A program made the position numbers and the translations under genes. The notes beneath the pieces are model-generated. The model saw only the letters and a program-made list of their open reading frames with translations, did not search any database and had not been told where the DNA came from. DNA of 64,000 bases from an uncultured Pelagibacteraceae bacterium. GTDB taxonomy: Bacteria; Pseudomonadota; Alphaproteobacteria; Pelagibacterales; Pelagibacteraceae. This document shows, piece after piece, positions 2,585 to 54,478 of this stretch; position 1 is the first letter of the stretch; every line of letters begins with the position of its first letter. The stretch covers positions 1 to 64,000 of the forward strand of contig CACLPR010000002.1 of the NCBI GenBank assembly GCA_902608845.1, read 5' to 3'.

Positions 2585-3190
2585 TTATGGGACTAGCCAG
2601 TTTTGTTTATTATTTGAAATATCAAATCTTGCTCTTCTATGACCTTTTGCTGCAAGATAAAGCCACTCAATACTTTCAATATTACATTGAATTACAGTAA
2701 AGTTTTTATAACCTTCTTCACTTTGCTCCATAGTAAAGCCTGATTTTTCAATGTCCTCACTTAACCCTGAGCTCGGCTCTTCCATTTCTGTTCCAGGACC
2801 ATTATTTACTAAATAGCATTTTCTACTTACATGAGCTGTTTTTAACCATGATTGTTCAGTTATCTCATTATCATGATTGACTATGCAATTAACTTTAACA
2901 CGTAGCTGAATTTTTTCTTCTTTATCGTAAAAGATTAGTGCAGCATATTTATTTTTTTTTAATTTTGGAATTTTGTCAGATCGTATATCGCTATGAAACT
3001 GAAGAAGATTATTTGATTGGTCAGATTTTCTAAGAACAACAATTCTTCCACCAAAGTCTGACTGATCGCCACAAACAAAAACTGGAATTCGAAAAGGTGA
3101 TGATCTATTAGTCACTGCATCATCAAGCATCGACCATATTTTTTTCTTTATTTCAGAAAAGTCCTCATAGTATGGGACAGCATTTGACAT
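2585..3190 (-). CDS. pyridoxamine 5'-phosphate oxidase-like FMN-binding protein
   Basis: RIVVLRKSD...LQFHSDIRSDKIPKLKKNKYAALIFYD, C-term EWLYLAAKGHRRARF; start trimmed to MSNAVPYY. Confidence 0.8.
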   Translation of the reverse strand: MSNAVPYYEDFSEIKKKIWSMLDDAVTNRSSPFRIPVFVCGDQSDFGGRIVVLRKSDQSNNLLQFHSDIRSDKIPKLKKNKYAALIFYDKEEKIQLRVKVNCIVNHDNEITEQSWLKTAHVSRKCYLVNNGPGTEMEEPSSGLSEDIEKSGFTMEQSEEGYKNFTVIQCNIESIEWLYLAAKGHRRARFDISNNKQNWLVP

Positions 3191-3194
3191 TGAT

Positions 3195-4070
3195 TTATTT
3201 CTTTTTTTTGAGTCTAGCAATTAAACTAGAGCTATCCCATCGATTACCACCCATTTTTTGAACATCGGCGTAATACTCATCAACTATTTCAGTAATCGGG
3301 ACTGGTGAACCATTTCTTTTTGCTTCTTCAATTACAATCTTTAAATCTTTTCTCATCCAGTCAACTGCAAAACCATAATCAAATTTGTCTTCAACCATAG
3401 TTTTATATCTGTTTTCCATTTGCCAAGATTGTGCTGCTCCTTTTGATATAGTTTCCATTACTTTATCAATATCTAAACCAGCGTTTATTCCAAAATTTAT
3501 AGCCTCTGATAAACCTTGAACAACTCCTGCAATACACATTTGATTCATCATTTTCGTAAGTTGGCCACTTCCTGATGAGCCAATTAATTTTACTTTTTTG
3601 CTATAGCAATCAATCACTGGTTCAGCTTTTTTAAAAGCTTCTTCATCACCACCGACCATAACTGTTAAAATTCCACCTTCAGCTCCAGATTGACCGCCAG
3701 AAATTGGTGCATCTAAAAAAGCAAAACCTTTTTCTTTTGCTTTATTATAAAGTTCTCTAGATACTTCTGCAGACACAGTTGAATTATCTACATATATAGA
3801 ACCTTCTTTAGCACTATGAAATAATCCATTTTCACCTAAAGTAACTTGTTTCAAATCCTCATCGTTACCTACGCAAGTAAAAATAAAATCAGCACCTTCT
3901 GCAGCTTCTTTTGGTGTTGAAGCCATTTTACCTTTATACTCAGAAATCCATTTTTCAGCTTTGGCGGTTGTTCTATTAAAAACACTTACATTATGCCCAG
4001 CTTTTGATATATAACCAGCCATCGGATAACCCATTACCCCGAGACCTATGAAAGCAACATTACAAGTCAT
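3195..4070 (-). CDS. NAD(P)-dependent beta-hydroxyacid dehydrogenase (3-hydroxyisobutyrate DH / tartronate-semialdehyde reductase family)
   Basis: FIGLGVMGYPMAGYISKAGH, FLDAPISGGQSGAEGG, KMMNQMCIAG. Confidence 0.9.
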   Translation of the reverse strand: MTCNVAFIGLGVMGYPMAGYISKAGHNVSVFNRTTAKAEKWISEYKGKMASTPKEAAEGADFIFTCVGNDEDLKQVTLGENGLFHSAKEGSIYVDNSTVSAEVSRELYNKAKEKGFAFLDAPISGGQSGAEGGILTVMVGGDEEAFKKAEPVIDCYSKKVKLIGSSGSGQLTKMMNQMCIAGVVQGLSEAINFGINAGLDIDKVMETISKGAAQSWQMENRYKTMVEDKFDYGFAVDWMRKDLKIVIEEAKRNGSPVPITEIVDEYYADVQKMGGNRWDSSSLIARLKKKK

Positions 4071-4081
4071 AAATTATTTAT

Positions 4082-5290
4082 ATGTTTAAAAGTTTAAGTT
4101 TAAAAGTAATTATTTTTGGTTTTATTTTTACATTTTTTTCGTGTTTTGGACAGAGTTTTTTTATAGGATTGTTCAATTCTAGTATAAGAGAAACTCTTTC
4201 TATAACACATGGACAATTTGGCACGATTTATGCATCTGCAACTCTATTTAGTAGTTTGCTTCTTATTTGGATTGGAAAAAAAATTGATGATGTAAATGTG
4301 ATAAAATTTGCAATCTTTGTTACGATACTTTTATCTTTTTCCTCTTTTTTCTTTTCCAAAACATCATCAGTAGCTTTTTTATTTGTTGCAATTTTTTTAA
4401 TGAGATTCTCTGGGCAAGGATTAATGTCTCACACAGCTTCAACTACTATCTCAAGATATTTTACAAAATCTAGAGGTAAAGCGTTAAGCATTATTTGGTT
4501 TGGTCTATCTTCAGCAGAATTTATAATGCCTGTATTAATTGTTTACCTTTTAACAATGATTATTTGGCAAGATTTATGGGTAATCTTTTCTCTAATAATT
4601 TTAATTTGCCTACCTTTAGCATCTTACATTTTAGTTAAAGATGTGAAATTAGATACTAGAGAGAGAAATCAAAATGAAAATTTAAAAGAGGACAATATTA
4701 AAAACTGGAAAAGAATTGAAGTTCTTCAGGATTATAGGTTTTACATTATTTCATTAAATATGTTGGCTATGCCTTGGATAGCAACTGGAGTATTTGTATA
4801 TCAATCATTTGTCACTAATTCAAAAGGGTGGGGTGAATATACAATTGCACAATCTTTTATGTCTTACTCAATTTTTTCTGTAATTACTTTAGTTGTTGCT
4901 GGTTATTTAATTGATAAGTTTACAAGTAGAAAATTACTAATCTATATGAATATTCCATTATTTTTAGGAACTTTAGTGATCATATATTTTGATGCTCCAC
5001 TAACTGCTTTTTTATTTCTTGGATTAGTTGGAATATCAAACGGTCTAGCTAATTTATTAGGATCATCAACATGGGCAGAAATTTACGGTGTAAAATATAT
5101 TGGATCTATTAAAGCTTTGACTACAGCTTTAATGGTATTTGCAACTGCTTTTGGTACAGCATTGTTTGGTTTTTTTATAGATGCTGGATTTTCAATTGAA
5201 AAAATCGCATTTATTGCAGCAATTGCTATAGCATGCTCTATAGCTTTACTTTTCACTATACGAAAAAAATTAAATCCAGTTTATCTCTAA
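4082..5290 (+). CDS. MFS transporter
   Basis: ~12 hydrophobic segments, MFS-type loops. Confidence 0.85.
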
Positions 5291-7041: not shown

Positions 7042-7062
7042 AATTTAATAGACTATTAAATT
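7042..7062. promoter_or_regulatory. 21-bp perfect inverted repeat, candidate operator upstream of the TRAP operon
   Basis: aatttaatag-a-ctattaaatt; arms are exact reverse complements. Confidence 0.5.
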
Positions 7063-7081
7063 AATTTAAAGAGGGGAAAAC

Positions 7082-8092
7082 ATGTTAAAAAAAATAAGTT
7101 TTTATTTCACAACATTATTTTTAGCTTTCTCATTAATTGGATCAGCTTACGCTGTGACATTAAAAGCAAGTCACCAGTGGCCGGGCACTCCAAGAGCTGA
7201 TGGTTCTTTTGATCCAAGACATGAAATGGTTCAAATAATTGCTGATGAAGTTAAAAAAGCAGGTGTTGATTTAGATATTAGAATTTATCCTGCAAAATCA
7301 CTTTACAAACCAAAAGAGCAATGGAAACCAATGACTACTGGTCAGTTAGATATTTCAGCGTTTCCATTAGCATATGCATCAAAATTTCATCCTGAATTTG
7401 ATGCAACACTAATGCCAGGAACTGTTAAAAATCATGATCATGCTTTAAGATTTAATAAAGGTCCAATGATGAGTGAGATTAAAAGAATCATTAATGATGC
7501 TGGTGTAGTTGTATTATCTGATGCTTGGCTTGGTGGTGGATTTGCATCAAAATCTAAATGTATAAAAAATCCATCAGATGCTAAAGGACAAGTAATGAGA
7601 GCAGCTGGTAAAGCATTTAACCAAATGTTGGAAGCAGCGGGAGCGGGTATTCAAAGTATGCCTTCATCTGAGATTTATACTGGATTACAAACAGGAGTGT
7701 TAACTGGTGCAAACACTAGTTCAGGAAGTTTTGTAAGTTACAAAATTTATGAACAAGTAAGCTGCGCGACACCTCCAGGAAAATTTGGATTATGGTTTAT
7801 GTATGAGCCAATTTTGATGTCAAAAATGAGTTTTGATAAATTAAATTCCAAACAACAAAATGCTTTAATGGAGGCAGGTAAAGTTGCTGAGAAATATATG
7901 ACTGCGCAAGTCGAAAATTTAGACAAAAAATTTGAAGACGCGTATAAAGCAGCAGGAGTTAAGTTAGTATATATGGATGCAAACGACCATGCGGCTTGGG
8001 TTGAGATTGCAAAACAATCCTCTCACAAAGCATTTGCTGAAAAAGTTCCAGGCGGTGATAAGCTGATGGAAATGGCTTTAGCAGTTAAATAA
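7082..8092 (+). CDS. TRAP transporter substrate-binding protein (DctP family)
   Basis: signal peptide, LKASHQWPGTPR, AAGKAFNQMLEAAGAGIQSMPSSEIYTGLQTGVLTG; SD gagggg upstream. Confidence 0.92.
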   Translation: MLKKISFYFTTLFLAFSLIGSAYAVTLKASHQWPGTPRADGSFDPRHEMVQIIADEVKKAGVDLDIRIYPAKSLYKPKEQWKPMTTGQLDISAFPLAYASKFHPEFDATLMPGTVKNHDHALRFNKGPMMSEIKRIINDAGVVVLSDAWLGGGFASKSKCIKNPSDAKGQVMRAAGKAFNQMLEAAGAGIQSMPSSEIYTGLQTGVLTGANTSSGSFVSYKIYEQVSCATPPGKFGLWFMYEPILMSKMSFDKLNSKQQNALMEAGKVAEKYMTAQVENLDKKFEDAYKAAGVKLVYMDANDHAAWVEIAKQSSHKAFAEKVPGGDKLMEMALAVK

Positions 8093-8106
8093 AAAGATAT
8101 ATAAAG

Positions 8107-8140
8107 AACCCCTATTTAAAAATTAAATAGGGGTTTTTTT
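8107..8140 (+). terminator. strong hairpin plus U-tract between the TRAP SBP and DctQ (terminator/attenuator or mRNA stabiliser)
   Basis: aacccctatttaa-aaa-ttaaataggggtt followed by ttttt; 13-bp perfect stem, 3-nt loop. Confidence 0.85.
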
Positions 8141-8141
8141 T

Positions 8142-8636
8142 ATGAAGGAAAAATATTTAAAATTTTGTAATTTATCGTCAAAGGCTTGTGGTGCCTTTGC
8201 TGTTCTAGCATTAATCTTATCAATTTTGGTAATAGTTGAGCTTGTATTTGAAAGATATTTTTTTCAAAGAGCAATCACTTGGCAAACAGAGTTAGTCACA
8301 ATGCTTTTAGTTGCTTCAACATTCATTGGAAGCGCCTATGTTTTAAGTGAAAAAGCACATGTCAGTATGGAATGGATTTATGATTTTTTATCAAAAAAAA
8401 ATATTCTTAGACTTAAAATATTTACATCATTAATAAGTTTATTATTTTTCTTAATTTTATTCTATTTTGGATTTTTAATGGTGGAGGAAGCTTTTATTAA
8501 AAATTATTCGACAGGAACGGTTTGGGATCCACCTTTATGGATACCTTATTCTTCTATGATGATTGGAGCAGCTTTAATGATACTTCAATACATTGCTGAA
8601 ATTATTAAACTTTTTGACGAAGAGGGCACTAATTAA
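8142..8636 (+). CDS. TRAP transporter small permease (DctQ)
   Basis: size, position, 4 TM segments, TWQTELVTMLLVASTFIGSAYVL. Confidence 0.9.
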   Translation: MKEKYLKFCNLSSKACGAFAVLALILSILVIVELVFERYFFQRAITWQTELVTMLLVASTFIGSAYVLSEKAHVSMEWIYDFLSKKNILRLKIFTSLISLLFFLILFYFGFLMVEEAFIKNYSTGTVWDPPLWIPYSSMMIGAALMILQYIAEIIKLFDEEGTN

Positions 8637-9967
8637 TGGATCCTTTATTAATAGCAATAATAGTTGCTGTTTTTACTCTAATAGTTTTATTTTCGGGAAT
8701 ACCTATCGCGTTTGGTTTAAGTTTTGTCTCTATAGCACTTTTAGTAGCATTTGAAGGATTTCAAATGTTAGACGTTTTTGCTGAAACTTTTTATGCAGGA
8801 CTAAACTCTTTTGTTCTACTCTCAATACCAATGTTTATTTTGATGGGAATGGCAGTTGCTAATTCTCCAGCAGGAAAAGATTTATATACCGGATTAGATA
8901 GATGGCTTTGGAGAGTTCCAGGTGGACTAGTAATATCTAATATTGGGGCTTGTTCAGTTTTCGCTGCCCTCAGTGGATCAAGTCCAGCAACTTGTGCAGC
9001 AATCGGAACCATGGGGATACCTGAAATGAGAAAAAGAGGATATTCCGATCAAATTGCAACTGGAACAATTGCAGCTGGTGGGACTCTTGGAGTTTTAATT
9101 CCTCCTAGTATTGTTTTAATTGTTTATGGAATTGCAACAGGAACATCGATAGGAAGATTATTTTTATGCGGATTGGTGCCTGGCTTTATGTTGGCAGGAA
9201 TGTTTGCAATTTGGGCTCTTATACACAGTTACTTTATTGATAAAGACTCAGCAAAGGCTTTAAAAAATAGAACACCTCCTACATTTAAAGAAAAAATTGA
9301 GGTGTTGCCAAGAATTCTTCCTTTCTTAGCAATTATAGCTGGTGTCTTATATGTTTTGTATGGTGGTGTTGCTACACCCTCTGAGGCTTCGGGTGTTGGA
9401 GCATTTTTAGTTTTTGTATTGATCGCTGTAGTTTACAAAATTTATCAACCAAAAAAGATTTGGAATATTGTTAAAGTTTCAATGAAAGAAAGTGTGATGA
9501 TAATGTTCATCATTGCTGCCTCTTACCTTTTCGCTTTTACATTATCTCAACTTTATGTAACGCAATCTTTAGCACAGAGCATGGTTGAACTAAGCTCTAA
9601 CAAATGGGTAGTATTTATATTAATAAATATTTTTTTATTAATTGCTGGCTTCTTTTTACCACCAGTAGCCGTCATTGTTATGACATCTGCAATATTGTTA
9701 CCTGTTATAACAACCTTAGGATTTGATCCATATTGGTTTGCAATCGTATTTACAATAAATATGGAGATTGGTCTTATAACCCCACCTGTTGGACTTAATC
9801 TTTATATAATAAAAGGCATTACTCCAGATGTAAGTTTGTCAGAAATATTAAAAGGATCTATTCCTTTTATGATAATTATGGCTTTAGCAATATTAATATT
9901 GTGTATTTTCCCTGAAATTGTTACCTGGTTGCCTGATAAAATAATGGGCAAAAGTTTAGGTTTTTAA
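8636..9967 (+). CDS. TRAP transporter large permease (DctM)
   Basis: LLSIPMFILMGMAVANSPAGKDLY, ALSGSSPATCAAIGTMGIPEM, GGTLGVLIPPSIVLIVYG. Confidence 0.95.
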   Translation: MDPLLIAIIVAVFTLIVLFSGIPIAFGLSFVSIALLVAFEGFQMLDVFAETFYAGLNSFVLLSIPMFILMGMAVANSPAGKDLYTGLDRWLWRVPGGLVISNIGACSVFAALSGSSPATCAAIGTMGIPEMRKRGYSDQIATGTIAAGGTLGVLIPPSIVLIVYGIATGTSIGRLFLCGLVPGFMLAGMFAIWALIHSYFIDKDSAKALKNRTPPTFKEKIEVLPRILPFLAIIAGVLYVLYGGVATPSEASGVGAFLVFVLIAVVYKIYQPKKIWNIVKVSMKESVMIMFIIAASYLFAFTLSQLYVTQSLAQSMVELSSNKWVVFILINIFLLIAGFFLPPVAVIVMTSAILLPVITTLGFDPYWFAIVFTINMEIGLITPPVGLNLYIIKGITPDVSLSEILKGSIPFMIIMALAILILCIFPEIVTWLPDKIMGKSLGF

Positions 9968-41250: not shown

Positions 41251-41937
41251 ATGCTTACAAAAACACAACTATTTTCAAAGGGTTTTCTAGCTGTCGCACC
41301 GCATATGTTTTCAGTTATCCCATTTGGCATAATATGTGGTGCAATAGGTATAGAATTAGGTTTTGATCCTGTTTTAGTTTATGCAATGTCCATTATTATC
41401 TTTGGTGGGGCATCTCAAATAGTATTTCTTCAATTGTTATCAGGTGGAGCTTCGGCCTTGATTGCTGTTACTTCTGTTGGGGTAATAAATTCTAGACATT
41501 TGTTATATGGCGCAGTTTTATCTGAATACCTTGAAAAATTATCATTTATTAAAAAATTATTAATTTCCTACATCGTAGTTGATCAAGGTTTTGCTGAGAG
41601 TAATAAATTTTTTATGAAAAATAAAACTGAGCAACATTTACATTATCATTTAATTGGTAGTGGTGTTACACTTTGGATTTTTTGGCAGTTATCAACTTTA
41701 GCAGGTATAGTTTTAGGATCTTTTGTACCAGAGGAACTGGGTCTAAAATTTGCAATTCCTTTAACCTTTATTGCAATTGTTGTTCATGATTTAAAAAAAA
41801 TAGATCATGTAATAGTAATGATTACGTGTGGGCTAAGCTCATTATTATTTTATGATGCACCCTTTAAATCCTACATAATCATTTCACCTATAATAGCATT
41901 ATTTGTTGCTGCATTAGTTCTAAGGTTAAAAAAATGA
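41251..41937 (+). CDS. AzlC family branched-chain amino acid export permease
   Basis: PFGIICGAIGIELGFDPVLVYAMSIIIFGGASQIVFLQLL, NSRHLLYGAVL. Confidence 0.93.
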   Translation: MLTKTQLFSKGFLAVAPHMFSVIPFGIICGAIGIELGFDPVLVYAMSIIIFGGASQIVFLQLLSGGASALIAVTSVGVINSRHLLYGAVLSEYLEKLSFIKKLLISYIVVDQGFAESNKFFMKNKTEQHLHYHLIGSGVTLWIFWQLSTLAGIVLGSFVPEELGLKFAIPLTFIAIVVHDLKKIDHVIVMITCGLSSLLFYDAPFKSYIIISPIIALFVAALVLRLKK

Positions 41938-43457: not shown

Positions 43458-43506
43458 ATGAAATTTTTATGACAATATTTAGTAAGGGAATTTTGTTGAT
43501 AGTAAT

Positions 43507-43806: not shown

Positions 43807-44376
43807 TCAACCTTTTATAGTTTTTTTAGGTTTTTCAGTGCACATTAAATGGGCCTCAGTAATTTTTTCAGGAAATTTATCTAATTTCCAGTTGTTATCC
43901 AAAATATCAAAATACTTTTCAGGATTAAAATCATCAGATTTTGCAAGCGTTATACTAAATTCATTATCTTTTCGATAATCATTCATAATGCCATCAGTAA
44001 ACTCATCTAAAGGATAATACTCAGGAGCAGTAAACATCACAAAAAATGCCATATTACTAAAAGCCGGTCTAACAAGCACAACATCTGCAAAATTTAAGGT
44101 ATCAGACCCATTAATTCTTATCGGAACCTTCTTTCCTTGTAATTCAGGTGTGTCTGAACTTTTATAAGTCAAAAAGGAAAACATTATTCCAATTTTATTA
44201 CAGTTTCTTTTTTCAAGAACAAATCTCATTTTATCACCATACACAACTTCACCAGGAACACTTGCTACTACATAGCTTCCAAAATCATGAATATTCCATT
44301 CATCATCATTAGCATATGAGAACGTTGTAAAAATAATTGAAACTAAAAAAAAATTTCTTAAAACTTTAAAAAACAC
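43807..44376 (-). CDS. exported protein, unknown function (paralog of 44431-45006)
   Basis: signal peptide; shares GE-hGDK, FLT.K, YFDI..NNWKLD.F with its neighbour. Confidence 0.6.
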   Translation of the reverse strand: MFFKVLRNFFLVSIIFTTFSYANDDEWNIHDFGSYVVASVPGEVVYGDKMRFVLEKRNCNKIGIMFSFLTYKSSDTPELQGKKVPIRINGSDTLNFADVVLVRPAFSNMAFFVMFTAPEYYPLDEFTDGIMNDYRKDNEFSITLAKSDDFNPEKYFDILDNNWKLDKFPEKITEAHLMCTEKPKKTIKG

Positions 44377-44430
44377 TTAAAAATAATCCTACTATTTTAA
44401 TTATTACTAAAGCTTCCATCCCTACAAACA

Positions 44431-45006
44431 TCAACTATCCTTAAATATATTCTTTTCATTACAGCGCCTGTAGAATTCTTTAAAATTTTCAGAGAAATAA
44501 TCTAGTTTCCAATTATTTTTTCTTATATCGAAATAATTTTTAACCTCAAAATTTAAGCCATCATTTAATGAAATTTCGTAATTTTGATTTTCCTCAATAA
44601 AACCTGATAATTTTTGGGCATATTCTTTTGAATTATATGAACCTAGTTTAAATACTACCCAATGAGCTCTATGATCTAAAATTTTTTCTATATGTGTTAC
44701 TTCAGCAAAAAAATCGAAGTCGTTGATTTTTATTGGGATATTTTGATTTTCAAATTGGTAGATATTAGCATCACCTTTTGTCGTTAAAAAAGTAAATAAA
44801 TGATAAACGGTATCACAATCTTTATAATTCAAAGATAAAACAATTCTATCACCATGTATAAATTCACCATTTTTAGACATGTAAATAAAATTTTTATCTT
44901 TCTCAATTATAGCCCACCCATCATCCTGAGCTCTAGCATGAGGGTGGACTATTAAAAGGATAAAAAACGCTACTAAATGAAGGAAAAAGAATAATGATAA
45001 TCTCAT
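44431..45006 (-). CDS. exported protein, unknown function (paralog of 43807-44376)
   Basis: signal peptide; NYFDIRKNNWKLDYFSENFKEFYRRC matches KYFDILDNNWKLDKFPEKITEAHLMC. Confidence 0.6.
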   Translation of the reverse strand: MRLSLFFFLHLVAFFILLIVHPHARAQDDGWAIIEKDKNFIYMSKNGEFIHGDRIVLSLNYKDCDTVYHLFTFLTTKGDANIYQFENQNIPIKINDFDFFAEVTHIEKILDHRAHWVVFKLGSYNSKEYAQKLSGFIEENQNYEISLNDGLNFEVKNYFDIRKNNWKLDYFSENFKEFYRRCNEKNIFKDS

Positions 45007-45082
45007 GATTCTTTTCTTAGCAAAGTCGTATGTTAGAATTCAGTTTAAAATTTGTTTTAAATGAGGTTGAATAGAAAAACTT

Positions 45083-46183
45083 ATGAGTATCTTTAAAAGA
45101 AAAAATCTAAGTTATTTTTTGTTTAGATTAATTATATTTTTATCTTATTTTATTTTTAACCAAACTTATGCAGCAAATGTAGTTAATTATTCATTACTTC
45201 TTGGAGAGAATTCAAGTACTGTAATGTATATTTTTAGGTTTGATGATAACTCAAAAGGAGCATTTTTAGTAGAATACGGTGGTTCTAATTCTTTTAAAAA
45301 TGCACATACACTTGGACAGAATTATGGAAATTCTTACATCATGCCACCAAAATATGGTGACAATAACAAACAAGAAACATGGACAAGACTTGAATATAAA
45401 TTAAAAAACTTTCAATATAATTATGAAGTTAGAGGTAATGATCAAATTTTAGGTCTGGCTTCAAAAGAATCCATGCAATTAATCGAGAGATATATATCTA
45501 ATTATGAATCTTTCTCTTTTTCATCAAAAAATAACAATAACTTTTACAAAACTATTCTTGTACCAGCCAAAACTATATTTGACCTAAAAATTTTTTATAA
45601 AAATAATAAACGAGTTTATTGTAAAATTATTAATGAAACAGAGATAGTTAAGCACATAAATAAAGAATTAAATAAAAATTTAGTAACAATTTCTAAAGAC
45701 AATGGTTTGTTATGTAATAATAAATTTAAGGTTGAAAAACCTAAAGAGAAAACAAAAGAAAAAAATCAAACAAATAATGATCAAAAAAAATCTGATAAAG
45801 AAAACATAAAAAATAATACAAGTAAGAACAAAAAATTATCAAAGAATGATAATTATTTAAATGAATATTGGTTACATTTTGTGGTTTTATTTGTTGTAAT
45901 TTTTTTTATATTTAAAATTAATCGGTCAACAAACAAAGAAAAATTAAAAACTAGTTTATCAAAAAAGAAAAACGTTGAAAAAAAAGCTGCTAAACTAAAA
46001 AAAACTAAAATTAGAACAGATAAAAATTTGGAAAATAAAGAATTTATTAATGAAAAACTCAAAATAAAAATAAAGGAAGAAAAAAAAATTGTTAATAAAG
46101 AAAAAAAAGACAAAAATGTAATTAAAAAACAAGTAGAGAAACAAATTGATGAAAATCTTGATGATCTAGATTTTGATGTATAA
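45083..46183 (+). CDS. membrane protein: signal peptide, periplasmic domain, single TM, Lys-rich cytoplasmic tail ending DDLDFDV
   Basis: hydrophobic N-term to TYAAN; TM YWLHFVVLFVVIFFIFKI; Lys-rich tail. Confidence 0.6.
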   Translation: MSIFKRKNLSYFLFRLIIFLSYFIFNQTYAANVVNYSLLLGENSSTVMYIFRFDDNSKGAFLVEYGGSNSFKNAHTLGQNYGNSYIMPPKYGDNNKQETWTRLEYKLKNFQYNYEVRGNDQILGLASKESMQLIERYISNYESFSFSSKNNNNFYKTILVPAKTIFDLKIFYKNNKRVYCKIINETEIVKHINKELNKNLVTISKDNGLLCNNKFKVEKPKEKTKEKNQTNNDQKKSDKENIKNNTSKNKKLSKNDNYLNEYWLHFVVLFVVIFFIFKINRSTNKEKLKTSLSKKKNVEKKAAKLKKTKIRTDKNLENKEFINEKLKIKIKEEKKIVNKEKKDKNVIKKQVEKQIDENLDDLDFDV

Positions 46184-46196
46184 CTTTTTAAATATA

Positions 46197-47021
46197 TTAT
46201 AATTTTGTACAATAAAAATTTGACTTTAAAATTTTCTTATCAGCATTATTAATTAGATATCTCGGACTGTCGGTACCATTCATGTTGAATTCATGCAAAA
46301 ACCTCCCATCATTTGCTATAATAAAATAATTTAATGGATATTTTTTATCTTTTGGGGTCGTGGTTGAAAAAATAATATATTCATCTTTATCGACTAATAC
46401 ATAAAGTTTTTGTCTTTTAATTTCCTTATAATCAGACTCTTTTTTTATATTAGCACTTAAAAGTAACCATTTTTTTTCATTTTCTAATAATGCTGTGAAA
46501 TAAAAATTTTCGTTTTTTTTTTTACATTCAATAACCAATCTATCTTCCTCAGGTTTATTAAAACTATTTGAAGTTCTAAAAATTCTTCCGGACCACCAAA
46601 AAGTTCTAAAAATATTTATTCCAGCATTCTCTTCTAAAAATTCATTTATATCTATGTCACTTTTATCAATAACTTCGGAAAGTCGTTTACCATTCTTAAC
46701 CCCATGTAATTCTAAAAGTTTATTATGACCTGAATTCTTTAACTCGCTTACATAATTAAGATTAAAATCATTAATTTGATCTCCAAATTTTTTGCTAGTT
46801 TCACTACTTGTCATAACATTATCCGATTTATCAATACCTTTTAAATCTTCCATCTTTTTTCCCGCATCAGGAATTTCATCCGCACCTTTTTTCAAGAACT
46901 TAAATATTTGTTCAAAACTCTCTAATATTGGCTTAATGGGTATTGCGTATGAATTAGTTGTTACAAAAAATGAGAAAAAAAATATTCCTAGACATAGACC
47001 AATTTTATGTGGTTTAATCAT
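46197..47021 (-). CDS. exported protein, unknown function
   Basis: signal peptide GIFFFSFFVTTNSYAIP; divergent from the GrpE-like gene by 19 bp. Confidence 0.6.
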   Translation of the reverse strand: MIKPHKIGLCLGIFFFSFFVTTNSYAIPIKPILESFEQIFKFLKKGADEIPDAGKKMEDLKGIDKSDNVMTSSETSKKFGDQINDFNLNYVSELKNSGHNKLLELHGVKNGKRLSEVIDKSDIDINEFLEENAGINIFRTFWWSGRIFRTSNSFNKPEEDRLVIECKKKNENFYFTALLENEKKWLLLSANIKKESDYKEIKRQKLYVLVDKDEYIIFSTTTPKDKKYPLNYFIIANDGRFLHEFNMNGTDSPRYLINNADKKILKSNFYCTKL

Positions 47022-47040
47022 AAATGTTAATTGAGGTTAA

Positions 47041-47748
47041 ATGAATTTTTTATCTATTGCAAGTTACGTGGTACTAATTCTAGCTCTAATTCTATCAATA
47101 ATTTTATTTTATAAGCTTTATTTAAAAATTAAAAGTTCTGACAAAAGTAATTTTAACCTTATTGAATTTCCAAAAGAAACTAGTTCTAAAATAGAAAATT
47201 TTATAAACGAATCTAAAAAAAATAATGAAGAATTAATAAAATATTTAAATAGTCAATATAAAGATGCAAAATCAATTATAAAAGACGTAGACGAAAAAAT
47301 TGCTCCATTTGAAAAAGTTGCTAGAGAAAAAAATGATGAACTTAAGGAATACAAAAGAGGTTATGAGTATTCGAGAAATAAGTCGATACTAGATGGTATA
47401 ATTGATACGATTGTTTTCATTGAGAACGCTGAAAAAAAAATTCAATTAAATGATGATATTACAAAATCGTATTTCCAAAGCACAAAAGACAAACTTTTGA
47501 TAGTTTTAAATAATTCAGGAATAGAAATATTTACACCTAAACTAAATATTAATAGTATCGACCATCATGGTTGTGAAGTTGATGCAATCACTGAGCCAAC
47601 TAAAGACAAAGAAAAAAATAATTTAGTTCATTCAATAATTTCGAATGGTTATATGACTAAACTTAAAAATGATGAAATATTTTATCTTAAAAAAGCATTG
47701 GTAAAAATTTATGAATTTAATAATGATATAAATAAAGGAGCTAATTAA
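47041..47748 (+). CDS. membrane-anchored GrpE-like protein
   Basis: N-term TM VVLILALILSIILFYKLYL, coiled coil, then LKEYKRGYEYSRNKSILDGIIDTIVFIENA and C-term ...HSIISNGYMTKLKNDEIFYLKKALVKIYEF resembling GrpE. Confidence 0.65.
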   Translation: MNFLSIASYVVLILALILSIILFYKLYLKIKSSDKSNFNLIEFPKETSSKIENFINESKKNNEELIKYLNSQYKDAKSIIKDVDEKIAPFEKVAREKNDELKEYKRGYEYSRNKSILDGIIDTIVFIENAEKKIQLNDDITKSYFQSTKDKLLIVLNNSGIEIFTPKLNINSIDHHGCEVDAITEPTKDKEKNNLVHSIISNGYMTKLKNDEIFYLKKALVKIYEFNNDINKGAN

Positions 47749-47750
47749 GT

Positions 47751-49289
47751 ATGAGTAAAATTGTAGGAATTGATCTTGGAACTACCTTTTCAGCAATCGC
47801 AATCTTAGATGATTTGGGGAACCCAGAAGTATTATCTGATCCAATAAATAACAATAGAATTACTAGATCTGCTGTATATGTTGGAAGAGAAAAAGCAATA
47901 GTGGGTGATAAAGCTATTGATGCTGCTGTAACAAATAAAAAAAATACTATTCTTGAAGTTAAAAGTGAGATGGAAAACGATGTTGTTTGGTCAACATCTA
48001 AAGGACAATGGATTGATAGAGATGGTAAAAAAGATGTTAAGGGCTATACTCCATCTCAAATATCATCTCTTATTCTCTCAAAATTAAAAGACTACACATC
48101 TGGTGTTAAAAAAGCAGTTGTTACGGTTCCAGCAATGTTTGCAGAAGCCGCAAGAGTTGCAACAATTGATGCAGCTAAATTAGCAAAGCTAGATGTCGAG
48201 TTAATTAATGAGCCAACAGCAGCAGTTCTTCATTATGCAAATCTTCCAGGAGTATCAATTAGTGGCAGAGTGTTGATATTTGATCTAGGGGGAGGTACTT
48301 TTGATATAACCATAGCAGCTGTAAAAGATAAAAAAATTGATGTTATAACATCTGTAGGCGATAAGCACTTAGGTGGAAGAAGATTTGACGAAGAAATTAT
48401 CAAAATTTTAGATAAAAAATATAAGAAAGCAAAAGGTAAAGGACTAGATGATTTAAATGATGAAAAATTATTTCTTATAGCTGAGAGAATTAAGAAAATC
48501 CTTAGCAATAAAGAAACAGCATCAGAAATTATAGAAGGTCCTAAAGGTCCACAAAAAATAGATATTACTAAAAAAGAATTTGAAAATTCTATTGATACAT
48601 ATGTTGAAAAAATAAAGATGTTAATGGAAGAAGCTTTAGAACGGGCCGATTGTAAACCGAGCAACATTCAACAAACACTTTTAGTGGGTGGGAGTACAAG
48701 AATGCCTTTTGTTAGTGAAATTATTAAAAAAATTATGAAAAAAGCACCAGTAAAGGGAGTAAATGTTGATGAGGCTGTTGCTTGTGGTGCAGCTATTTAT
48801 GCAGGTATACAAAACAAAGATGAATTAAATCCTTCTCAAAAAAAAGCAATTGCAAAAGTAGATTTACAAGACATATGCAATTTTTATATGGGAACCTTAA
48901 TGGCAACAATTGACCAAGAAAAAGATCAATGGGGAGTAGTTAATGATGTTGTAATACCAAGAGATACAAAACTTCCATGTTCAATTACAAAGAATTATGC
49001 AGTTTTACATGATGACCAAGAAACAATTGATTGCTCTGTTACACAAAGTGAGGGTGAGGAGAGCAATATAGATTTTGTGGTAGTTATAGCAAAAGAACCA
49101 CTAAAATTGTCAAAAAACGCTAAACAAGGTGACCCTGTAGAAGTTACATATTCATATGACACAAATGGAAAAATGCATTGTGTATTTCAAGAAATGAAAT
49201 CGAAAAAAAAACATGAAATGACTTTAAAACCAGATGGATCTAAAGAATTTAAAAAACTAAAAGATGAACTTGATTTTGATATAGAATAA
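47751..49289 (+). CDS. Hsp70/DnaK-family protein, truncated (no lid domain)
   Basis: VGIDLGTTFSAIAIL, AVVTVPAMFAEAARVAT, LINEPTAAVLHYA, IFDLGGGTFDITI, LLVGGSTRMPFV; 512 aa. Confidence 0.95.
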   Translation: MSKIVGIDLGTTFSAIAILDDLGNPEVLSDPINNNRITRSAVYVGREKAIVGDKAIDAAVTNKKNTILEVKSEMENDVVWSTSKGQWIDRDGKKDVKGYTPSQISSLILSKLKDYTSGVKKAVVTVPAMFAEAARVATIDAAKLAKLDVELINEPTAAVLHYANLPGVSISGRVLIFDLGGGTFDITIAAVKDKKIDVITSVGDKHLGGRRFDEEIIKILDKKYKKAKGKGLDDLNDEKLFLIAERIKKILSNKETASEIIEGPKGPQKIDITKKEFENSIDTYVEKIKMLMEEALERADCKPSNIQQTLLVGGSTRMPFVSEIIKKIMKKAPVKGVNVDEAVACGAAIYAGIQNKDELNPSQKKAIAKVDLQDICNFYMGTLMATIDQEKDQWGVVNDVVIPRDTKLPCSITKNYAVLHDDQETIDCSVTQSEGEESNIDFVVVIAKEPLKLSKNAKQGDPVEVTYSYDTNGKMHCVFQEMKSKKKHEMTLKPDGSKEFKKLKDELDFDIE

Positions 49290-49290
49290 T

Positions 49291-50496
49291 ATGCTTGAAG
49301 TAGTAATAGTATGGGTTGTTTTAGCAATAGGTTGGGCCTTAATAAAAGGTGTTTTTGGAGCAATGTTTGGTGGTGGAGGTTCAAGCTCTAATCTTGAAGA
49401 AGTAGTTAAATCAAACCCGTTTTCAATAAAAATTACAAAAGGTATTCCTAAAGATACTGACTTAAAAATTAATTGTTTTAATATTGAAATGTGTGGAATG
49501 GTTAATCATCCTACTCAAGATGAAATAAAAGTTTTTCTTACAGTACAGGACATAACTGATGAAGAACCAGGACTCCCTGTTTTATCTGCACAAGCAGTTT
49601 TCTGTGAACCCAATAGTAGAGTTTTAGGTTTTTACCAGATTGTTAAAACAAGTTATGATGGATATTATCCAGACTGGGTGAAGTTTTGCTCTTTACCACT
49701 AGATTTTATTATACCACCTCACAAAGGATCAAGAAAACTTAAATTTATACTTTTAGCTTGTGATTACGACACAGAATTGGAAAGAGGCGTGGTTACAGAT
49801 ACTTCAAAAGTAAAACATTTTGCTTCTAAAGAAGTTAATTTTAGTTTTAAGGAACCAGGTTATATGGATGAAGTAAAAAACAAAGATAAAGTTGAAGAAT
49901 TGTCAATTAAACTAGGGATGTGTATGGCTGCAGCTGATGGTCATTTAGATCAAAAGGAGTTAAATGTAGTTAAAGATTGGGCAAGGAATGTAACGAATCT
50001 ACTTGATAATGATATTAAAAAAGAGAGAAATAAATTTTTTTCTAAATTGATTAAGGAATCATATATTGCAGCAAAAAAAAGAGATATCTCATTATCTAAA
50101 TTAGTTGATGAGTTTAATAATATTGCCTCAAAATCTCAAAAATATACAGCTATGCAGCTAATGTTAGATATAGCAAGTGCTGATGGGCGACTTAGCAAGA
50201 CAGAAGATCAGTTAATAAATAAAATTGCAAAAACAACTGGAGTAAATCTTAATACATTTAAAGAAATGAAAGATAAAGTTATTGCAAATGTTGACGAATT
50301 AGAAATTTCTGAAAAACCATCTGAAGAGAGCTTTGGGCTTACTGATGAAATGGAAGATATTGAAAAATGTAAACTATTAAGAAAAGAATATACTAAATGG
50401 AATGCTCAAACTAATCACAGGGAAGTTAAGAAAAAAAAAAGAGCTAAAGAAATGGTAAAAATTATAGCGGATATGCGTAAGCAGTATAATTGTTAA
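49291..50496 (+). CDS. membrane-anchored protein with two TerB-like repeats
   Basis: N-term TM; MAAADGHLDQKELNVV and IASADGRLSKTEDQLI repeats. Confidence 0.7.
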   Translation: MLEVVIVWVVLAIGWALIKGVFGAMFGGGGSSSNLEEVVKSNPFSIKITKGIPKDTDLKINCFNIEMCGMVNHPTQDEIKVFLTVQDITDEEPGLPVLSAQAVFCEPNSRVLGFYQIVKTSYDGYYPDWVKFCSLPLDFIIPPHKGSRKLKFILLACDYDTELERGVVTDTSKVKHFASKEVNFSFKEPGYMDEVKNKDKVEELSIKLGMCMAAADGHLDQKELNVVKDWARNVTNLLDNDIKKERNKFFSKLIKESYIAAKKRDISLSKLVDEFNNIASKSQKYTAMQLMLDIASADGRLSKTEDQLINKIAKTTGVNLNTFKEMKDKVIANVDELEISEKPSEESFGLTDEMEDIEKCKLLRKEYTKWNAQTNHREVKKKKRAKEMVKIIADMRKQYNC

Positions 50497-51620
50497 TGGA
50501 CCATTTCGATAAATACAAATTTAAAAGTGATAATCCTAATGAATTTGGAATAGATTTAAAAAAATTTAAAAAAAATGAAATTTTAGATGAAAGTCATTTA
50601 TCTAATTTACTATCTCATTCAATAAGAATTTCTAAGGATATTTTACCATCTGTTTCTCAATCAATTGATGCAGTTATAGAAAAGTTGGATATTAAAAATG
50701 AATTTGATTTCTTTGTTACGTCAGACAATTATCAAGCCAACGCTTCTTGCAGTCTTATGTCTCCATTCTCAAAACCATTTATTATTTTAACTTCTAAATT
50801 AATTGAGCTATTAAGTGAAAAAGAGCTTGAATTTGTTATAGGTCATGAAGTGGCACATTATATTTACCAACACTCATTGTATCCAAATCATCAAAATGAG
50901 GAAAATAGGAACTTGAGGTTAAATATATTGAATTTAAGTAGGGCAGCAGAAATTAGTGCTGATAGGATAGGTATTTTGGCATGTGGAGATTTGGAGGCTG
51001 CTCTAAGAGCTAATATTAAACTAACATCTGGTTTAAGTGATAAATATTTAAATTTTAAATTTTCAGCTTATTTAGATCAGCTAAGAGAAATTGAAACAAT
51101 TGGTAAGAGTAATAACCAATTGTGGAGCACTCATCCTAGTTTTTTAATTAGGATGCAAGCATTAATATGGTTTTCAATGACCAATGAGTATAACGAATTC
51201 TTTAAAACTAAAAAGAAAGGCACATACAACATCGCAGAAATTGATGAAAAAATTGAAAATTCTAAACAAAAAATGATAGGTAACGAAATTGAAACGTCAA
51301 ATCAAGAAATAATTAACAGAGCTTTTATGTGGGGTTCCTTGAACCTTTATTTAAGTGACAAGAAATTTACTAAATACGAACAAGAAGAATTTAAGAAAGC
51401 ATTTGGTGATGATGCAAAAAAAGCAATATCACTGATAAAAATTACAGATAAAAATATGCTTCAAAAAAAAGTAGAATCATCTTTTTTAGAGGCATCAAAA
51501 ATGCTTAAAACGAATAAAAGTAAATTGATCGATAAATTAAAAAATGTTTCTAATAATATAGAAGGTGACGCAAGTAAAAAAAAAAAGGTTTTAAAAGAAT
51601 TAATTAAATTTTTAAATTAA
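50490..51620 (+). CDS. M48-like zinc metalloprotease, predicted cytoplasmic
   Basis: ELEFVIGHEVAHYIYQH (HExxH), AAEISADRIGILAC; no signal peptide or TM; C-terminal TerB-like stretch. Confidence 0.8.
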   Translation: MLMDHFDKYKFKSDNPNEFGIDLKKFKKNEILDESHLSNLLSHSIRISKDILPSVSQSIDAVIEKLDIKNEFDFFVTSDNYQANASCSLMSPFSKPFIILTSKLIELLSEKELEFVIGHEVAHYIYQHSLYPNHQNEENRNLRLNILNLSRAAEISADRIGILACGDLEAALRANIKLTSGLSDKYLNFKFSAYLDQLREIETIGKSNNQLWSTHPSFLIRMQALIWFSMTNEYNEFFKTKKKGTYNIAEIDEKIENSKQKMIGNEIETSNQEIINRAFMWGSLNLYLSDKKFTKYEQEEFKKAFGDDAKKAISLIKITDKNMLQKKVESSFLEASKMLKTNKSKLIDKLKNVSNNIEGDASKKKKVLKELIKFLN

Positions 51621-53152
51621 TAACTAGTTTTAAACATTGCCCAACTAAGAGCATTTATAGTATTTTCAGGAACAACGTTTATATTTAGGAGTATTATAAT
51701 AAATACAATTAAAAAGTAAGACAAAATACCAAATCTTTTACTGTAATATGAAATTAGATTTTCTATTTTATTTTTGTTCTTAGACTTACTTAATTGAAAC
51801 GATATAATTGCAAGTATGTTTGGAGCCGCAGCATATACATATGAAGTAAGTATAATCCAATCCATCACAGTTAAATAATTAAGTTTAGGAAGTTCGTTAT
51901 CAATAACAAAATTATATGCAATTAATGAAAGAAGACATACAATTGTAATAGTAAGTTTTGATTCTATTTCCTTTCTGTCGACCCAAACAGAAGACCAGCA
52001 GACAAATAGTATTAACATTATTGGAAGAATAATTTTGAAAATATAATAAAAAGATTGTCTTTCTATCTCAAATTCAATTGTGCCTTCATTAAATATCAGA
52101 TTACCAAGATCTATTTTGTTTTGAACAGAAATTTTGCTGTCTATAATTTTCCATCCGGGAATCGAATTTTCCTCAGTAAGTTTTAAAATTCTATAACTTA
52201 TGTCGCTAAATTCAAAATAATTTTCCTCAAAATCATCCATATCAATTAGATGTATTTTTATTTTTTGCTTATCAAAAGGAAATGATAAAAGATTAAATTT
52301 ATTTCTTACACTCCAGGTTCCAGTGGTGTTGCCTACGATATTTAATGTAAGCTCTTCATCTTCAGCAGTAAAATATAAATCAACTGTATCATAAATTAAA
52401 TTTTGATCCTCTGATAATAAATTTTCAAAAGCAAGATTTTCTCCAGGATAGATTAATCTGTAATTTTCTGCTAAATCTTGTGGTATATCCATACAATCAT
52501 CTGAATTCCATTTTCCATCTTTAAATTCTGCTAAATATTTTTTTGCTAGATCTACAACAGGAAATATATTATTGTCGTAGTATTCTTTTCTTAAACTGAT
52601 TGTAGATGAAAACGTGACAACCGAATTAACAATATCTATGTCATTTATTGATTCTAAAGCAAAATCTACAATGTTATAGGTTCTTTCATACTCAACACGT
52701 TTTAAGGAGACTTCTTTTATTTTTTTATCTCTTTCATACACTAAATTAATAGTATCCTTATTTGGTGAATAAATTAATTCCTTAATAGTTTGATCATCCA
52801 AGGTATTAAAATTTTTTCCATCAATAGCAATTAATATGTCGTTTTTTTTAAAATAATTTAAATAAGGTGGATGAGAAATTAACCCAATATAAGGATAGCC
52901 TCTTTTATCTCTTCTTATTTTAGATAAAAAACTTGTATCTTTTAAATCTAATGTTGCTGGAGGGTCATAATTGAATGCAATGCCAAAATCATTAAACTCA
53001 TCCACAACATCCCATCTGAACTCTGGGTTATCTTTAGACTCTAATGTTAATGCTTCTAAAAAATCATAACAAGATGGAGATAAAGAATGACTAGTTTTTG
53101 AAACTGAAGCAACAAATAGCAAAATAAAAAAAATATATCTTAATTTTATCAT
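51617..53152 (-). CDS. pentameric ligand-gated ion channel homologue with N-terminal PDZ-like domain
   Basis: signal peptide; YPYIGLISHPPYLNYFKKNDILIAIDGKNF (PDZ-like); LLSFPFDKQKIKIHL; RQSFYYIFKIILPIMLILFVCW; LTITIVCLLSLIAYNFVIDNELPKLNYLTVMDWIILTSY (M2-M3). Confidence 0.85.
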   Translation of the reverse strand: MIKLRYIFFILLFVASVSKTSHSLSPSCYDFLEALTLESKDNPEFRWDVVDEFNDFGIAFNYDPPATLDLKDTSFLSKIRRDKRGYPYIGLISHPPYLNYFKKNDILIAIDGKNFNTLDDQTIKELIYSPNKDTINLVYERDKKIKEVSLKRVEYERTYNIVDFALESINDIDIVNSVVTFSSTISLRKEYYDNNIFPVVDLAKKYLAEFKDGKWNSDDCMDIPQDLAENYRLIYPGENLAFENLLSEDQNLIYDTVDLYFTAEDEELTLNIVGNTTGTWSVRNKFNLLSFPFDKQKIKIHLIDMDDFEENYFEFSDISYRILKLTEENSIPGWKIIDSKISVQNKIDLGNLIFNEGTIEFEIERQSFYYIFKIILPIMLILFVCWSSVWVDRKEIESKLTITIVCLLSLIAYNFVIDNELPKLNYLTVMDWIILTSYVYAAAPNILAIISFQLSKSKNKNKIENLISYYSKRFGILSYFLIVFIIILLNINVVPENTINALSWAMFKTSY

Positions 53153-53853
53153 ATTTTTTTTTTCTCAAATTCTTTTCTTTTTTTCTTTTGTTTATTTTTC
53201 AAAACTTTATGTAAATATAATGAGTAAATTATTAAAATTATAATAATAATCATTGATGAAGGGTAAATTAAATAATTATAAAATCCGTGAAATAAGTATG
53301 GTAATAATAAAGATAATAGCAAAAATTTCTTATTTCCAGTAAAAGCATACATTCCAAAATAATATCCCATCACAGCCCCATTTAATCCATGCAAAGGTAT
53401 AGCGCTATAAGATCTACCTAGAGCAACAAAATATGAATATACTTCAGGACTTTCATTGTCTTCATTTGCCCATTCAACTGCTAATTCATAAACATACGAA
53501 TAATTTTCATATGTTGCAAAACCTAGCGATACGACAACTCCATAAACCAAGCCATCCATTGGTTCATTGAATTCATTTCTCTTTAAAACGATTAGATATA
53601 ATATAGCAAACTTCAGTAGTTCTTCAGCCCATGCTGGTCCCAAAAAACTTATAGTCAAATTTTCTGAATAATTAAATTTTTCAAAAAATAGGCCATGACT
53701 TAATTCGTTCAAAATTCCTGCTGGTAAGCATATAAGGAAACCTAAAAAAAAAATTAAAATTATTGTTTTTAAAGGTTCTTTAAATTTATCGTTTAGAGTG
53801 AAATATAATAAAATTAATACAGATGGTAGAAAAGTTAAGACAGCTGTTAGCAT
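53149..53853 (-). CDS. PrsW-family intramembrane protease-like protein
   Basis: GPAWAEELLKFAILYL, DGLVYGVVVSLGFATYENYSYV, PLHGLNGAVMGYYFG. Confidence 0.83.
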   Translation of the reverse strand: MLTAVLTFLPSVLILLYFTLNDKFKEPLKTIILIFFLGFLICLPAGILNELSHGLFFEKFNYSENLTISFLGPAWAEELLKFAILYLIVLKRNEFNEPMDGLVYGVVVSLGFATYENYSYVYELAVEWANEDNESPEVYSYFVALGRSYSAIPLHGLNGAVMGYYFGMYAFTGNKKFLLLSLLLPYLFHGFYNYLIYPSSMIIIIILIIYSLYLHKVLKNKQKKKRKEFEKKKI

Positions 53854-53912
53854 CAGAAAAGCTAGATTAAATATTGTATAAACACAAGTTAATTTTAGTG
53901 TATAAATAAATT

Positions 53913-53981
53913 ATGAAATATATTTTATTAGGTGCTGCTATCGCTTTTGCAATGTATTTAGGTGATAAATACATTCTATAA
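53913..53981 (+). CDS. possible 22-aa hydrophobic small protein
   Basis: MKYILLGAAIAFAMYLGDKYIL, intergenic between PrsW-like and DUF4396 genes. Confidence 0.3.
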   Translation: MKYILLGAAIAFAMYLGDKYIL

Positions 53982-54034: not shown

Positions 54035-54478
54035 ATGAGTGCTGAAGCAATAAGTTTTAATTGGAAATGTAAACATACTTGGAGAAGAAGTGCCAAGAAT
54101 ACTGCTTGGTGCCTTTTAGGTTGTGCTATTGGTGATTTTGGAACTATATTATTTTTTCAATTAACTAAAATTCCTTTTCCAGTTTTAAGTATTATGATTT
54201 TAGCAATAATTAATGGTTTAATTACAAGTGTAATTTTAGAGACATTTATTTTAATTAAACAAAGCTTTACTTTTCAAAAAGCATTAAAAACTGCATTAGG
54301 AATGAGCTTTATTTCTATGATTAGTATGGAAGTTGCTATGAATATTACAGATTATGTATTTACAGGAGGCGCAATACTTACATGGTGGGTAGTTCCAATA
54401 ATGTTAGCAGTTGGATTTGTTACTCCTTGGCCATATAACTATTGGAGACTTAAAAAACATAATCAAGCCTGTCATTAG
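54035..54478 (+). CDS. DUF4396-like membrane protein
   Basis: WRRSAKNTAWCLLGCAIGDFGTILFFQ, MEVAMNITDYVFTGG. Confidence 0.7.
   Translation: MSAEAISFNWKCKHTWRRSAKNTAWCLLGCAIGDFGTILFFQLTKIPFPVLSIMILAIINGLITSVILETFILIKQSFTFQKALKTALGMSFISMISMEVAMNITDYVFTGGAILTWWVVPIMLAVGFVTPWPYNYWRLKKHNQACH

Follow-up and report, generated by a model that had tools for sequence, protein, structure and literature searches.

The DNA between positions 43,459 and 53,878 of the window (the whole 64,000-nucleotide stretch that was analysed) is a composite block, located at a site whose gene content varies among SAR11 genomes. It comprises at least two independent modules together with variable exported genes and is not a single system. 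On the best reading, the core at 47,041–51,620 is a horizontally mobile four-gene operon encoding GrpE-like, Hsp70, TerB, and M48 proteins, and the adjoining channel–PrsW pair is a second cassette, inferred to be inherited separately. The fuller proposal, in which the block is such an island and the core encodes a membrane-tethered Hsp70 machine that feeds the M48 peptidase, is moderately probable. The host is a Pelagibacterales (SAR11) genome of 939 kb and 74% completeness, in which the window lies within contig C2; the named genomes nearest to it in the collection searched are single-cell and metagenome genomes of Pelagibacterales.

The initial annotation described an accessory block of about 10 kb with nine to ten genes on both strands. 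Both points hold: the ORF listing contains ten open reading frames (ORFs) on both strands at 43,807–53,853, and gene order and blastn confirm the limits, since the block is absent from the same site in the three close relatives G031, G004, and G005. At its left end are two reverse-strand genes for exported proteins. The first (43,807–44,376; 189 aa) has no known family by ORF analysis, family search, and hydrophobicity, and is a weak relative of the second (44,431–45,006; 191 aa). They are followed by a forward-strand gene for a 366-aa protein (45,083–46,183) with a single internal hydrophobic segment (residues 258–284), a Lys-rich tail, no evident signal peptide, and no known family, and by the reverse-strand gene for exported protein c14 (46,197–47,021; 274 aa), which is oriented divergently from the GrpE-like gene, 19 bp away. 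The four core genes, all on the forward strand, encode a predicted nucleotide exchange factor that resembles GrpE and carries a hydrophobic helix at its N-terminus (47,041–47,748), a short Hsp70 of 512 aa (47,751–49,289), a membrane-anchored, co-chaperone-like TerB protein (49,291–50,496), and a soluble M48-family metallopeptidase (50,490–51,620). The reverse strand then carries the gene for a pentameric ligand-gated ion channel, which has a PDZ-like domain at its N-terminus (51,617–53,152), and that for a PrsW-family intramembrane protease (53,149–53,853), the two overlapping by 4 bp where the protease gene ends and the channel gene starts. Profile searches back the Hsp70, TerB, M48, PDZ/channel, and PrsW families, while the GrpE match is sub-threshold.

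This content is indeed rich in chaperones, proteases, and membrane proteins, but the claim that all of it belongs to the envelope or periplasm is unsupported. Hsp70 and M48 have neither a signal peptide nor a hydrophobic segment and should therefore be cytoplasmic, so the proposed role of the core in periplasmic protein quality is not borne out. The membrane topology of the core proteins was judged from hydrophobicity.

In G031 (L131), the homologues of the genes at 41,251, 41,934, and 42,558 run straight into those of 54,035, 54,506, and 54,695 with 428 bp between them, compared to 10.5 kb in the window. G004 (L132) has about 0.6 kb at the block site, and G005 (L130), whose AzlC is 99% identical, has a single unrelated gene there. 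In blastn comparisons, DNA homology to L130, L131, and L132 stops at 43,458 and restarts at 53,879, and within the block a stretch of approximately 170 bp (about 44,890–45,062) is kept in all three. The kept piece is the 5′ (signal-peptide) end of gene 44,431–45,006, of which the first 40–50 codons alone persist as a truncated 40–50-residue ORF with the same signal peptide. Its retention implies two indels around it, of about 1.4 kb and about 8.8 kb, by which block DNA is absent or replaced in the relatives. This remnant suggests loss in the relatives besides, or in place of, gain in the window genome, with uncertain polarity. The gene at 54,035 is present in 44 of 61 relatives, including 18/18 of the best-quality genomes, and AzlC (41,251) is present in 30 of the 61. 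Different genes occupy the block site in nearly every genome examined, which makes it a variable site. At the right edge of the block, positions 53,913–53,981 hold an ORF of 22–23 codons (MKYILLGAAIAFAMYLGDKYIL) that is conserved in three relatives and may encode a small membrane peptide.

The product of 47,041–47,748 is a divergent GrpE homologue with a hydrophobic N-terminus. Its match to Pfam GrpE (PF01025) falls below the cut-off (E 0.0018, 18.4 bits vs. gathering 25.8), and hhalign aligns it to GrpE with E 2.7e-5 and 74% probability. GrpE is found in each of the top six Foldseek rows for its AlphaFold model (mean pLDDT 69.6), which superposes on 1dkg_A (Z 12.3, rmsd 3.1, 108 residues aligned) and contains the long helix, helical bundle, and beta wing of the GrpE fold. 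The same genome has a separate GrpE gene elsewhere.

The Hsp70 matches PF00012 (E 2e-81) over residues 4–497 and profile positions 1–501 of 599, and its best PDB relative is a DnaK. It retains the ATPase domain, whose motif residues do not vary across up to 25 sequences, and the beta substrate-binding domain, but has no C-terminal lid region; the profile match ends at 495–501. It belongs to the Hsp70 superfamily but is not a housekeeping DnaK, scoring 283 bits against the NCBIfam equivalog cut-off of 823.

The TerB protein contains a hydrophobic helix, a beta-sandwich (residues 45–186), a TerB domain (about 190–332; E 1.3e-13), and a J-like tail, and its model (pLDDT 82) shows helix, beta-sandwich, TerB domain, and helical hairpin in that order. 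Structure 2ou3 supports the TerB fold (Z 13.3). No family was assigned to the beta-sandwich, for which only generic Ig-like matches were returned (Z 8 or below). The tail matches J domains weakly by hhalign (E 2.6e-4, probability 42%) and lacks the HPD motif, with KWN-type residues in its place in nearly all 26 distinct homologues. The match is suggestive, rather than firm, and the tail, which would be a degenerate J-like one, may not stimulate Hsp70.

The M48 protein carries the HExxH motif and downstream Glu of its family (His-119, Glu-120, His-123, and Glu-154), invariant in 25 sequences. It is not HtpX, scoring 26.9 bits against an equivalog cut-off of 285 and having no hydrophobic segment. 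A TerB-like domain considered for its tail was dropped (hhalign probability 2%).

The four core genes are separated by 2, 1, and −7 bp. When genomes of bacterial and archaeal species were queried with M48, 19 loci were returned, all in Pelagibacterales (L022 is the L009 locus). Counting the window and L151, there are 21 distinct SAR11 core loci, and the short Hsp70 and TerB protein accompany M48 in every one. A profile search of 385 genomes of the class found, besides the window's own genome, six further core loci in distant alphaproteobacterial families; the Hsp70–TerB–M48 order is the same in 6/6 and a GrpE-like gene stands in front in 5/6, with a truncated Hsp70 frame in one (L052). Across the whole phylum (398 genomes), two weak M48 matches and no others were found outside the window's own genome, and TerB and M48 relatives were not found in plasmid collections, phage collections, or viral contigs. 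Within the genus the core occurs in 10 of 399 genomes (2.5%), which are drafts, so that absence in one genome is weak evidence. Partner identity matrices correlate at 0.86–0.98 (Hsp70–M48 0.98, Hsp70–GrpE 0.95, and Hsp70–TerB 0.91), partly reflecting the near/far split of the sample. By visual assessment of translations, L056 is flanked by transposase-like ORFs and L054 by recombinase-like ORFs.

The gene beside the core is exchangeable. In most SAR11 loci it encodes a protein of about 1,000 aa with a weak leucine-rich repeat (LRR) match, whose place is taken by c14 in the window, L017, L018, and L035; c14 homologues were seen solely beside the core, in the latter three loci. Most SAR11 LRR-type loci lack a GrpE gene, and GrpE is thus not essential to the core module. 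LRR-type loci of the L023 kind carry PDZ domains on the TerB protein. The proteins encoded at 43,807, 44,431, and 45,083 have no match in any of the related loci retrieved. Only about 20–26 bp separates the start of the first core gene from that of its divergently oriented partner, whether c14 or LRR-like (window 47,022–47,040; L009:10577–10602). At L151:4024–17462, genes for DUF2130-like, GrpE, Hsp70, TerB, M48, LRR-like, and MkoA-like helicase proteins are consecutive on one strand.

In the channel protein, a PDZ-like head is joined to an extracellular domain that contains FPFD and to four hydrophobic membrane segments; FPFD, these segments, and homology to solved channels place it among the pentameric ligand-gated channels. 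Its matches to NCBIfam LGIC_1 (E 8e-20, below the full-length cut-off) and PDZ_2 (E 8.8e-5, below cut-off) are joined by matches of the channel domain to ELIC/GLIC structures (E about 1e-15). Unlike ELIC and GLIC, it has an N-terminal PDZ-like domain and a PrsW neighbor. The neighbor is a PrsW family member by a profile spanning nearly the whole protein (PF13367, E 6.8e-34, 117.6 bits vs. cut-off 23.5). Bacillus subtilis PrsW is linked to an anti-sigma factor and a sigma factor, whereas the partner gene of the block protein and its relatives encodes a channel or exported protein.

Among 101 SAR11 relatives, the channel occurs in 13, PrsW in 14 above cut-off, and both in eight (hypergeometric p = 1.4e-5). 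The two genes are neighbors, in several orientations, in all eight genomes that have both (window 51,617–53,853, L104, L105, L106, L107, L109, L110, and L112). A phage CII/CP76-like regulator is present at channel–PrsW loci L104, L106, and L112, and also at channel loci L113 and L114, where PrsW is not nearby. In L017, L018, L035, and G048, PrsW instead adjoins other exported proteins, which suggests that its partner, an exported or membrane protein, changes from locus to locus. L112 holds two different channel genes inside 7 kb (2690–4486 and 7049–9127), one of which adjoins PrsW.

The initial annotation argued for one integrated function, and the entire block could be read as a single envelope stress and repair unit, since its genes are located together, many of its products are exported or membrane proteins, and c14 is confined to this core type. 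That reading is improbable. The L017 core is near-identical to that of the window, with a 100% identical Hsp70, yet it has no channel and a different PrsW cassette, which indicates that the modules assort independently; the channel–PrsW pair is also present in seven genomes in which no core was found. For the entire block, the phyletic patterns are thus independent, the outcome that the initial annotation had named as refuting its claim. The opposite extreme, that unrelated genes piled up randomly where insertion is tolerated and form no functional unit larger than the single gene, would fit a site content that differs in nearly every genome, but is highly improbable given the four-gene order kept across distant families and the constant adjacency of channel and PrsW despite varying orientation.

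The reading of the core as a mobile membrane-tethered machine draws on its observed gene identities, conserved linkage, co-divergence, sporadic distribution, and intact ATPase and peptidase motifs, from which a mechanism can be inferred. Its hydrophobic anchors, GrpE and TerB folds, and soluble, intact M48 point to a cytoplasmic machine tethered to the membrane that would unfold and cleave clients. The inner membrane would anchor the GrpE-like and TerB proteins, their working domains facing the cytoplasm, and these two proteins would keep the lidless Hsp70 at the membrane. Sensing of stress or membrane state may fall to the TerB protein, whose beta-sandwich, TerB, and J-like parts may pick the clients. 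Hsp70 would then partly unfold these clients and be reset by the GrpE-like factor, and the M48 peptidase would cleave them. In the second cassette, PrsW may act on the channel, or on the PDZ-like head of the channel, by processing or switching it.

The core resembles several known systems in part. Like the DnaK–GrpE–DnaJ system, it has an Hsp70 whose ATPase motifs are intact and, in the same operon, a partner with the GrpE fold. It differs in that its Hsp70 is lidless and its GrpE-like factor is anchored in the membrane; the cassette includes an M48 peptidase in addition, contains no canonical J protein, and is mobile. DjlA is a membrane co-chaperone with a transmembrane helix, a TerB-like domain, and a C-terminal functional J domain (PMC11709261). 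The TerB protein has an N-terminal hydrophobic helix, TerB domain, and C-terminal J-like tail in the same order, but differs in its extra beta-sandwich, its lack of HPD, and its tie to its own Hsp70 and peptidase. The core M48 shares the catalytic motif of HtpX and other M48 peptidases, but, lacking hydrophobic segments, it is not an integral membrane protease, and it is linked to Hsp70. GAP1-N2 GTPase-centric conflict systems include Hsp70 with GrpE in accessory neighborhoods, and a subset has a second Hsp70-domain protein without a peptide-binding domain (PMC7159879). The core shares the accessory Hsp70 and GrpE, but has TerB and M48 instead of a GTPase, and its Hsp70 retains the beta substrate domain. 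The literature searched, with subscription papers largely outside its scope, yielded no description of Hsp70–TerB–M48 clusters or of PrsW with ligand-gated channels.

The core may instead be an anti-phage (conflict) system, in which the Hsp70 machine and its swappable partner, the LRR-like protein of about 1,000 aa or c14, detect infection and M48 is the effector. The core is sporadic and apparently mobile, and several LRR-type relatives lie near defence genes: DISARM DrmA/DrmB/methylase (L023), Z1 and an HSP90-like ATPase (L025), AIPR and a cytosine methylase (L031), and MkoA-like (Mokosh-like) helicases (L021, L033, and L151). Z1 itself occurs in just 7 of 101 SAR11 genomes. However, these loci may simply be general hotspots, and PADLOC 2.0.0 profiles gave only marginal matches to the core proteins (E 1.7e-4 or weaker), with no fitting model. 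Defence is possible but rather unlikely, and it was not adopted as the main explanation because none of the ten proteins of the block itself is a known defence protein. A bolder version is more doubtful still: that GrpE–Hsp70–TerB/J-like–M48 is an undescribed mobile chaperone–protease immune system with interchangeable sensors (LRR-like or exported protein), and PrsW–PDZ–channel an ion channel switched by intramembrane proteolysis. For the core as a membrane-tethered machine, the best reading of its predicted use is in stress or anti-phage responses.

Compared with known Hsp70 systems, the core is a new version whose function is putative. Hsp70 systems are usually regarded as housekeeping, and here an Hsp70 resides in a mobile cassette. 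If the proposed mechanism is true, the lidless Hsp70, membrane exchange factor, DjlA-like anchor, and peptidase would constitute a self-contained unfold-and-cut device. The linkage of channel and PrsW offers a candidate regulator for bacterial ligand-gated channels, whose roles are mostly obscure. The core is rarely seen and widely scattered, and its occasional retention by highly streamlined free-living bacteria makes the benefit that it may confer of interest.
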